NCBI GenBank assembly: GCA_903959175.1 | Contig: CAJBVW010000122.1 | Span: 1-38,270 of the forward strand | Source of the DNA: an uncultured Pseudomonadota bacterium | GTDB taxonomy: Bacteria > Myxococcota_A > UBA796 > SXON01 | Direction of reading: 5' to 3' | DNA: 38,270 nucleotides | Shown here: in pieces, positions 17,167 to 19,937 of the stretch | How positions within the stretch are numbered: position 1 is the stretch's first letter | Layout: every line of letters begins with the position of its first letter | The notes under the pieces: generated by a model | Databases searched by the model: none | Told to the model about the DNA's origin: nothing | The model's input: the letters and a program-made list of their open reading frames with translations, nothing else | Translations under genes and position numbers: made by a program

Positions 17167-18304
17167 ATGGCAAGCACCGTAGACCTCCCCGCCCTCGCAA
17201 CCTCCCTCCGTGAGCGCCTGGTGTCGCTCCGGGGGCATCTTTGACGTAGACGGGAAGCTCGAGCAGATCGCCGATCTCGACCGTCAGTCCTCCATCGCCG
17301 AGTTCTGGAACGACGCCGCGCGCGCGCGCGAAGTCCTCAAGAAGAAGACGCAGATGGAGAAGGTCGTCCGGCTATTCCAGGAGTCCTGGACCCGCCTGGA
17401 GGACGCCGAGACCCTCCTCGAGCTCGCGGACGAGGCGGGGGACCCCTCGCTCGCCGTCGAGGCCGGGACCGCGCTCGATCGCCTCGAAGGCGAGCTGCGC
17501 GCGATGGAGATCCGGCGGATGCTGGGGGAGGAGGCCGACGAGGCCAGCGCGATCCTCGAGGTCAACGCGGGCGCCGGCGGGACCGACGCGGCCGACTGGG
17601 CGGACATGCTCAAGCGCATGTACCTGCGCTGGGCCGACCGCATGGGCTTCAAGGTCAAGATCGTGGACGAGCAGTTCCACGAAGAGGCGGGCATCCGTTC
17701 CTGCACCCTCGAGATCGACGGCGAGTACGCCTACGGCTACCTCAAGGGAGAGATCGGCGTTCACCGCCTGGTCCGCATCAGCCCCTTCGACTCGAACGCG
17801 CGCCGCCACACGGCGTTCGCGTCCGTCGCCGCCTACCCCGACATCGAGGAGGACATCGAGGTCGTCATCCTCGAGAAGGACCTCCGCATCGACACCTTCC
17901 GCTCCGGCGGTCCGGGCGGGCAGAGCGTCAACACCACCGACTCGGCCGTGCGCATCGTGCACAACCCGACCGGCATCGTCGTGCAGTGCCAGAACGAGAA
18001 GTCCCAGACCAAGAACCGCTCGACCGCCATGAAGATGCTGCGGGTCAAGCTGTACCAGTTGGAGCTCGACCGTCGCCAGTCCGAGCGCGACGCGGTGAAC
18101 GCCACCAAGAAGAAGATCGAGTGGGGCAGCCAGATCCGGAGCTACGTGCTCCAACCCTACCGTCTCGTCAAGGACGTGCGTACCGGCATGGAGACGGGGG
18201 ACACCGACGCCTTCCTGGACGGGCGCATCCTCCCGTTCATGGAGCAGTACCTCGTGGCCCGCGCCAACGGCACCCTCGGCGAGGGCGGCGGGAGCGACGA
18301 CTAA
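17167..18304 (+). CDS. prfB: Peptide chain release factor 2, made by programmed +1 frameshift
   Basis: RF2 terminates translation at UGA and UAA. The first 25 codons (17167-17241, MASTVDLPALATSLRERLVS and on) end at an in-frame TGA (17242-17244). Skipping T17242 continues with DVDGKLEQIADLDRQ to the TAA at 18304, 378 residues in total. The stop recognition motif SPF is in RISPFDSNARRHTAF, and the peptidyl-hydrolysis GGQ is in RSGGPGGQSVNTTDSAVRI. SPF (not PVT) marks it as RF2. A GTG start at 17210 in the downstream frame is also possible by rule-based calling, but it would lose the conserved N-terminus. The gene reads as one CDS joined at 17241/17243. Confidence 0.96.
17231..17245 (+). promoter_or_regulatory. 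prfB +1 programmed frameshift site
   Basis: GGGGG (17231-17235) acts as an internal Shine-Dalgarno-like element, followed three bases later by CTT-TGA-C (17239-17245). This is the classical RF2 autoregulatory slip site: slow decoding of UGA when RF2 is scarce lets the CUU-bound tRNA slip +1 onto UUU. The downstream C after TGA is the poor termination context usual for this site. Confidence 0.95.
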
Positions 18305-18306
18305 CC

Positions 18307-19170
18307 GTGGCGGGCTTCGCGGAGCGGGTGAAGGCGCTCCCGCGGCTGGGGATCGGCGTCTCGACGGAGTACGGCGCGCGCACCGCGCCCGGTGCGCTCG
18401 ATCCCGCGGCGTTGCGGGCGGCGCATCCTCGGTGGGGGGCCTTCCTGGAGGTCGGGGTCGAGGTCGCCAAGGGCCTCGACGCGGACGCTCTGGCCTGGGC
18501 CGCGCGGGGCTGGCCCACGACCTACCACTTCCTCGACGTGAACCTCGACGAGCCCGAGGACCTCGATCCCCGCTGGCTCTCCAAGGTGCGCGCGATCATC
18601 GACGTGCTGCGCCCCGCCTGGCTCTGCGGGGACGCCGGGCTCTGGCACTTCGGCGGACGCGAGCGCGGCCACATGCTGCTCCTGCCGCCGATCCTGACCG
18701 GCGCGGCCGTGCCCGGGATGGCGGCCGGCATCCGGGCGCTCCGCGAGGTCACCGGGCGCGAGGTGCTCCCCGAGAACCCGCCCGGCGTCGCCTTCGTGGG
18801 TGACCTCCACCTCCTCGACTTCTTCGCGCGCGTCGCGGACGAAGCCGACACCGGCCTCCTCCTCGACCTCTCCCACCTCGCCATCTACCAGCACCTTCAC
18901 GGTCACGACGCGCTGACCGCCCTCGACGGCTTCCCGGCCGAGCGGGTGGTGGAGGTCCATGTCGCCGGGGGGATAGAGAAGGAGCAAGGCGGATTCCGGT
19001 GGATCGAGGACGAGCACGGCACCGCGGTGCGCCCCGAGGTGTGGCGCATCCTGGAGGCGCTGCTCCCCCGCATGACGAACCTGCGCGCGGTGGTCCTCGA
19101 GTGCGAGCGCAATGCCCTCGCCGAGGTCGCGCCGCTCTACGCGGACCTCGAACGCAGGCTCGCGCCGTGA
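18307..19170 (+). CDS. DUF692/MNIO family protein (MbnB/TglH/ChrH superfamily)
   Basis: The 287-residue protein resembles the multinuclear non-heme iron-dependent oxidative enzymes (MbnB, TglH, ChrH), which modify cysteines or backbones in ribosomal peptides. It is a TIM-barrel with potential metal ligands in family positions: E48 (FLEVG), H74 (TTYHFLDVNLDEP), D109/H114 (CGDAGLWHFGG), E156 (VLPENPPG), D187/H190 (GLLLDLSHLAIY), H218 (VVEVHVAGG), and E265/E267 (LECERN). The common SEHLAWS motif is altered to CGDAGLWH. GTG 18307 begins three bases after the prfB stop. The next gene overlaps by four bases, like the enzyme-partner pairs of MNIO systems. No precursor peptide gene is visible nearby. 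Family call good; substrate unknown. Confidence 0.82.
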   Translation: MAGFAERVKALPRLGIGVSTEYGARTAPGALDPAALRAAHPRWGAFLEVGVEVAKGLDADALAWAARGWPTTYHFLDVNLDEPEDLDPRWLSKVRAIIDVLRPAWLCGDAGLWHFGGRERGHMLLLPPILTGAAVPGMAAGIRALREVTGREVLPENPPGVAFVGDLHLLDFFARVADEADTGLLLDLSHLAIYQHLHGHDALTALDGFPAERVVEVHVAGGIEKEQGGFRWIEDEHGTAVRPEVWRILEALLPRMTNLRAVVLECERNALAEVAPLYADLERRLAP

Positions 19171-19937
19171 ACGCCCCCGACCTCCAGCGCGTCGTCGTGC
19201 GCATGCTCTACGATCCGGTGCTGGTCGAGCAGATCTACGGGTCCGGCCGCGTGGAAGGCGTCGACGCCGAGGCCCGCGCGCTCCTCACCCGCGTCGACCG
19301 CCGTGCCTGGGGCACCGACCCCTACCGTCGCGCGCGCACGCTCCACGCCCTACTCGAGGAGTACCCGGCCTCAGCCGCCGAGGTCGGCGTTGCGGGGCTC
19401 GACGCCTTCTTCGGAGACCGTGCCTTCCACGCCGCGATCCAGGCGCGCGCGTCGATCGCGGACGCCTTCGGGGCCTGGATCGGGCCCCGTGCGGGCCCGG
19501 TCGCCGCCGTCGAGCGCGCCGTCGTCTCCGTGCGCCGCGGCGCCGAGCGAGCCCCGTCCGCGCCCGCCGCGGGGCTGCTCCTCTGTGCCCCGACCGTGCG
19601 CTCCCTGGCCCTCCCGACGGGCACCTGCGCGCGTTGGCAGGCCCTCCGCGCCGCGCTCGGCCCCGAGCCCGTGTCGCGCCTGCTCGCGGGCTTCCAGGCC
19701 CCCCCGCGGCCTCCCCCCGTGCGCCGCGCCGCCGTCGAGCACCTGATCGTCGAGCGCACCGCCGAGGGCGAGGGGGTGGGCGAGGGCAGCTCCGGTCTGC
19801 ACGCGCTGCTGACCCGGGCGGAGCGGCCGTGTCCGCGCGCCGAGCTCCGCCGGCTGGCCGTGCGCGAAGGAGCAACGCAGGCCGAAGCCGACGAGATCCT
19901 CGACGGCCTCGTCGCCGACGGCGTGCTCCTCGGTTGA
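19167..19937 (+). CDS. Unknown protein, candidate partner of the MNIO enzyme
   Basis: I do not recognise this 256-residue protein. GTG 19167 overlaps the stop of the MNIO gene, so the two are probably co-translated. The N-terminal ~110 residues (NAPDLQRVVVRMLYDPVLVE, YRRARTLHALLEEYPASAAE, LDAFFGDRAFHAAIQ) are helical and recall the short N-terminal helical domain of DUF2063-type MNIO partners, though this is not secure. Residues ~110-210 are Ala/Arg/Pro-rich. The C-terminal ~50 residues (AELRRLAVREGATQAEADEI then LDGLVADGVLLG) look like a winged-helix domain. Three Cys are scattered. MNIO partners usually bind the peptide; that role here is inferred from position and overlap. Confidence 0.7.
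   Translation: MNAPDLQRVVVRMLYDPVLVEQIYGSGRVEGVDAEARALLTRVDRRAWGTDPYRRARTLHALLEEYPASAAEVGVAGLDAFFGDRAFHAAIQARASIADAFGAWIGPRAGPVAAVERAVVSVRRGAERAPSAPAAGLLLCAPTVRSLALPTGTCARWQALRAALGPEPVSRLLAGFQAPPRPPPVRRAAVEHLIVERTAEGEGVGEGSSGLHALLTRAERPCPRAELRRLAVREGATQAEADEILDGLVADGVLLG

Follow-up and report, generated by a model that had tools for sequence, protein, structure and literature searches.

MNIO substrates are usually read from the next gene, and the locus described here raises the question of what such an enzyme acts on where that gene is missing. In the window (the whole stretch of 38,270 nucleotides that was analysed), an MNIO gene at 18307-19170 is followed on the same (+) strand by a partner gene at 19167-19937, the two overlapping by four bases (GTGA); the coordinates and overlap given in the initial annotation, which was made from the sequence alone, are correct, as are the frames and GTG starts. 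We find that this is a real and conserved MNIO–partner pair that lacks a linked precursor and carries a coordinated change in its metal site, and that it belongs to a coherent, multi-phylum clade without a substrate gene next door. What the present analysis adds is the demonstration of this across the clade, together with the ligand signature. We consider it probable (roughly 0.6) that the pair is an MNIO–RRE heterodimer oxidising a trans-encoded peptide or protein, probably at a non-Cys residue, the substrate and the chemistry being the parts that we infer.

The first gene encodes 287 residues from a GTG start, and the protein is a member of the MNIO/DUF692 family, as had been claimed for it: the profile search is significant (PF05114, E = 2.6e-28, 99.5 bits against a gathering cut-off of 25). 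Its AlphaFold model (pLDDT 92) is a TIM-barrel whose best Foldseek matches are TglH (8hci_B, 7.3e-14), 3bww and MbnB (7dz9_B, 2.6e-11), with endonuclease IV and sugar epimerases also among the related folds. The enzyme misses the NCBIfam equivalog cut-offs for BufB, HvfB, ApyH, ChrH and MbnB by a wide margin; for example, it scores 89.3 bits against 310 for BufB, 72.1 bits against 360 for the HvfB family and 62.6 bits (3.2e-17) against 400 for the ApyH model NF050151. Together, Pfam, Foldseek and the tree described below place it in a group of its own, here termed the ‘CGDA’ clade.

The partner (256 residues) has no match in a Pfam search that included the DUF2063 signature, and its AlphaFold model (mean pLDDT 96) combines a helical N-terminal half with a winged-helix/RRE-like C-terminal half, which is the architecture that had been read from its sequence. 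The C-terminal domain (19734-19937, + strand; residues 190-250) consists of two strands and then three helices. The only significant PDB matches of the model are the TglI chains 8hi7_A and 8hci_A (Foldseek 5.1e-5, probability 1.00), while structures that contain an RRE, TbiB1 and TruD among them, match much more weakly and rank below TglI. The partner is a PME-type 2 (TglI-like) protein as defined by Antoine et al. (PMC12452194): it has no DUF2063 signature, its TglI/NGO1945-like fold runs from a helical to an RRE-like part, and its gene directly follows that of the MNIO, overlapping it in the window; direct succession is seen in 60 of 67 loci overall. In relatives, the N-terminal helical segment (19182-19330 in the window, + strand) resembles an NHLP-clan leader; 14 of 56 partner homologues match NF038399 over residues ~1-50 (best 6.6e-8; examples are L094:6873-7010 and L080:5708-5850), all of them below the curated cut-offs and with the window partner itself sub-threshold. 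Partners of two sister families also match NHLP-type models weakly. This resemblance over some 50 N-terminal residues may hint that RiPP leaders and MNIO partners descend from a common ancestor.

Sixty-seven clade loci were found in GTDB genomes; their record labels include Myxococcota, Planctomycetota, Acidobacteriota (Blastocatellia), Krumholzibacteriota and Eisenbacteria, and the loci form one monophyletic clade (support 100/97) apart from the canonical MNIOs of the window's order. Beyond the 60 loci with a partner homologue directly downstream, two lie at a contig edge and the other five have the partner elsewhere in the genome (5/5). Among 285 Myxococcota genomes of at least 90% completeness, the enzyme occurs in 34 and the partner in the same 34, with none discordant (three weaker enzyme matches, with E-values from 1e-33 to 1e-46, come from sister families and were left out), and among 58 relatives both occur in the same 20; related genomes are not independent, so these counts are given without a p-value. 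In some genomes the partner is unlinked, which shows that joint inheritance of a single DNA segment does not by itself account for the co-occurrence. A partner conserved without the enzyme, the pattern named beforehand as telling against the pair, was not seen in the 285 genomes. Strict co-occurrence across the searched Myxococcota genomes, which holds also for genes lying far apart, makes the pair a clean test case for unlinked peptides versus ordinary proteins as MNIO targets. As a separate observation, two related genomes have the unlinked partner directly after a Cys-rich protein with 14 Cys (L109:6554-8405, L110:6322-8086), and at the enzyme loci of the same genomes (L072, L078) the enzyme follows a Cys-rich trypsin-like lipoprotein.

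The neighbourhood of the pair offers no substrate. Gene-family clustering around the 67 loci found no third family recurring beyond close relatives, and neighbour distances and an all-against-all comparison of short ORFs found no conserved short ORF shared beyond near relatives, so that a linked precursor was rejected as a candidate. At many loci the pair directly abuts its neighbours, with no room left on either side, and no Cys-containing signal-peptide precursor of the bufferin type lies next to it in the window or beside any clade member. With no third conserved gene, the absence of a precursor is real, and what the initial annotation had reported for the window extends to the whole clade; its suggestion that the substrate is encoded elsewhere, or is a normal protein, is likewise supported. 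In contrast, the gene directly upstream of canonical MNIOs in the window's order encodes a Cys-rich precursor (EGKCG-type/ACKGxNxC).

In the window the pair is surrounded by YbeY, prfB, an FtsX/LolC-type permease and ABC/BamA-type ORFs. The prfB gene (17167-18304, + strand; PCRF and RF-1 domains) ends 2 nt before the enzyme gene, a setting that had been called unusual; this adjacency is seen in the window and in one congener only (L033/G002), every other locus differs, and we regard it as incidental and rejected a link between prfB and the pair. The prfB gene itself, with its ATG at 17167, contains in the region 17167-17250 the classic programmed +1 frameshift CGG GGG CAT CTT TGA C, with the in-frame TGA at 17242-17244 and reading going on GAC GTA GAC. 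Neighbours in other lineages are heterogeneous and include Der-like, TANGO2, transketolase-like, GST-like, GlmM-like and RsuA-like genes (names other than TANGO2 and prfB were read from the sequences of the neighbours). A TANGO2/NRDE gene lies directly upstream of the enzyme, overlapping it or at most 25 nt away, in L035, L036, L048, L068 and L086, which fall in two separate subclades.

Four candidate substrates failed: the partner itself, discussed below, and three further proteins, each of which was searched for in 58 genomes and does not follow the distribution of the pair. Cys-rich lipoproteins of family A3, found beside L036, L048, L068 and L086, are absent from the window's genome (G000) and occur in 1 of the 58 relatives only. 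The CYNLPC lipoprotein of a sister family, considered as a trans substrate, has strong matches in two sister-enzyme genomes only and none in G000. TANGO2, the most recurrent upstream neighbour, is present in 6 of the 20 relatives with the pair. The plasmid-borne MNIOs most like the enzyme, those that we examined, were rejected as clade members, as they are of the bufferin type with DUF2282 precursors.

The metal site sets the clade apart. In TglH the iron ligands are H71, H107, E151, D184, H216 and E258, with D184, N187, D229 and H231 at Fe3 (PMC10880893). In the alignment, the clade equivalents are His74 (18526-18528, in the motif T-x-H-F-L-D-x-N), Ala110, Glu156 (18772-18774, in PENPP, at the bridging ligand Glu151), Asp187, His218 (18958-18960) and Glu265 (19099-19101), and the Fe3 set is Asp187, His190, Asp235 and His237 (Asp187-x-x-His190 at 18865-18876; Asp235-x-His237 at 19009-19017), all on the + strand. 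Seven of the nine TglH ligands are thus kept, and the two changes, H107 to A110 and N187 to H190, are invariant in the clade. The first falls in the canonical S[DE]HLxW motif, which becomes CGDAGLWH (residues 107-114; 18625-18648, + strand; ligand numbering from PMC10880893 and PMC12257519), with Asp109 retained just before the position of the lost motif His. The alignment of 64 clade members has 46 invariant residues, among them C107, G108, D109, A110, G111, W113 and H114 as well as H74, E156, D187, H190, H218, D235, H237 and E265. The claimed replacement of the SEHLAWS-type motif is borne out, and by this alignment CGDAGLWH is clade-defining. The accompanying statement that the enzyme keeps most metal ligands stands as to the seven kept, but understates an invariant change that matches PbsC and not MbnB, TglH or BufB. 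The change is coordinated and invariant and not a decay, and the other ligands and the partner are retained.

For PbsC, an active oxidase that ortho-hydroxylates Phe, the ligands H97, D133, E178, D213, H216, H247, D260, H262 and E290 come from an AlphaFold 3 prediction and not a crystal structure (PMC12257519). The enzyme has this predicted H-D-E-D-H-H-D-H-E set in identical letters and order and with near-equal spacing, and the set is unlike that of every canonical MNIO aligned. The clade site would be expected to bind metal. Two sister families (L026 with L111-L115; L023 with L024) show the same relocated-His change, as does a Streptomyces MNIO whose plasmid-borne cluster also encodes a YcaO protein and an FPFR-repeat peptide. 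A preference of relocated-His MNIOs for non-Cys targets is no more than suggested, and there is a counter-case, in that the L026-type sister family adjoins a lipoprotein in which NCYGPC and CYNLPC motifs are conserved. As a sequence mark common to PbsC and the sister families, loss of the motif His with DxxN replaced by DxxH may serve to sort MNIOs by chemistry.

Computation establishes the family, the folds, the co-occurrence, the lack of a linked substrate and the aligned ligand identities, and the mechanism that we propose would work as follows. The two genes would encode an obligate heterodimer, in which the first protein would be an MNIO oxidase with a relocated-His site (motif His lost, adjacent Asp kept, DxxN changed to DxxH) and the helical N-terminal part of the partner would dock on it as in TglHI. 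The RRE-like domain may then capture a segment of the substrate as an added strand, the substrate presumably being a peptide or protein encoded at another genomic site, and oxidation would probably take place at a non-Cys residue, for example as a hydroxylation by analogy with PbsC. The Streptomyces MNIO near the FPFR-repeat peptide, which has the same change, and the canonical MNIOs of the same order with their Cys-rich precursors point toward a non-Cys target; the conserved Cys in the candidate substrate of the sister family point against it, as relocated-His enzymes need not avoid Cys.

A special case of this mechanism, which we offer tentatively and with some doubt, is that the target is a conserved housekeeping protein and the pair works like a protein hydroxylase, perhaps in translation. 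The pair is single-copy and without a linked substrate, and prfB, Der-like, RsuA-like (rRNA-modification-like) and GlmM-like genes adjoin it in various loci; however, the neighbours are heterogeneous, a randomly placed pair would meet housekeeping genes anyway, and presence in 34 of 285 genomes is patchy, unlike an essential modification. Equally tentative is the broader form of the idea, in which a widespread MNIO–partner pair oxidising a conserved non-RiPP cellular protein would constitute a bacterial protein hydroxylase that uses the MNIO barrel as its scaffold and has a relocated-His site of its own. A protein substrate had been described as a new use of the family; it is a possible reading, but MNIOs without identifiable precursors, or acting on proteins, have already been proposed (PMC12452194).

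It is also conceivable, and in our estimate unlikely, that the pair is an ordinary RiPP maturase whose small precursor peptide lies at a distant locus and is modified on Cys as in the bufferins. Cys is the target of most characterised MNIOs (PMC12452194), and Cys-rich secreted proteins stand right after the pair in 8 of 61 cases, somewhat more commonly than at most other positions, whereas a bufferin-type precursor lies beside none of the clade members, family A3 is missing from nearly all pair-holding relatives as well as from the window's genome, and the ligand set is not that of any canonical MNIO aligned. The loss of the TglH iron ligand His107, and the presence of endonuclease IV and sugar epimerases among related folds, might suggest a repurposed barrel with a different metal chemistry and no oxidase activity; we judge this quite improbable given that the change is coordinated and invariant, that neither the other ligands nor the partner has been lost and that PbsC, for which the same set is predicted, is active as an oxidase (PMC12257519). 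Still less credible is that the partner is itself the substrate, with recognition and core segments in one protein. Its NHLP leader-like N-terminal part and RRE-like part do stand together in this way, but its homologues share no conserved core motif and vary from 0 to 7 in number of Cys, only D51 and R123 are invariant, and the model has no disordered tail.

Among known systems, PbsC/PbsD (maturation of a biphenomycin-like RiPP) also pairs an MNIO with an RRE-type partner and, like the enzyme, is predicted to use an Asp where the motif His would be, together with DxxH (PMC12257519), but its linked FHAFRF precursors, arginase and B12-radical SAM enzyme have no counterpart beside the window pair. 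TglH/TglI (3-thiaglutamate) resembles the pair in both folds, whereas TglH has His107, Asn187 and the dedicated TglA peptide where the window has Ala110, His190 and no linked peptide. BufB–BufC (bufferin/oxazolin) and HvfB–HvfC likewise combine a PF05114 barrel with a partner, yet their SDH and DVNN motifs, upstream Cys-rich secreted precursor and DUF2063 partner are all missing here. ApyH/ApyI (aminopyruvatide) offers a non-Cys MNIO with an RRE partner, and one partner homologue weakly matches ApyI, but the P450, radical SAM enzyme and precursor of that system are not found with the window pair, and the score is far below the equivalog cut-off. Also similar, by its published description, is the PME-type 2 protein WP_006975235 of Plesiocystis pacifica (276 residues; Antoine et al., 2025), which is similar in length and architecture, lacks DUF2063 and follows an MNIO; the text of that paper describes no substrate for it (PMC12452194). 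Enhygromyxa and Nannocystis, which are relatives of Plesiocystis, both have a window-type pair.

Several related loci carry associations of their own. In one sister family (L026, L111, L112, L113, L114, L115) a conserved cassette consists of the NCYGPC/CYNLPC protein, then the MNIO, then a PME-type 2 partner, which in L115 is fused to the MNIO. The first protein (~165-260 residues, with a signal peptide or lipobox in most cases) has no match in Pfam or NCBIfam, and is a likely substrate. The window's genome also encodes a second, canonical MNIO (L001:1220-2940; G000:C81), and upstream of it lies a 303-residue protein, a putative large MNIO substrate, which has a signal-like N-terminus and a weakly cytochrome c-like C-terminus and contains 11 Cys and an EF-hand-like stretch. 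Finally, the relocated-His MNIO on the Streptomyces europaeiscabiei plasmid (L122:6486-11554) is a fusion of 533 residues, and lies with the YcaO protein, an acyl-CoA reductase and a 53-residue peptide with four FPFR repeats, which may be a RiPP precursor.
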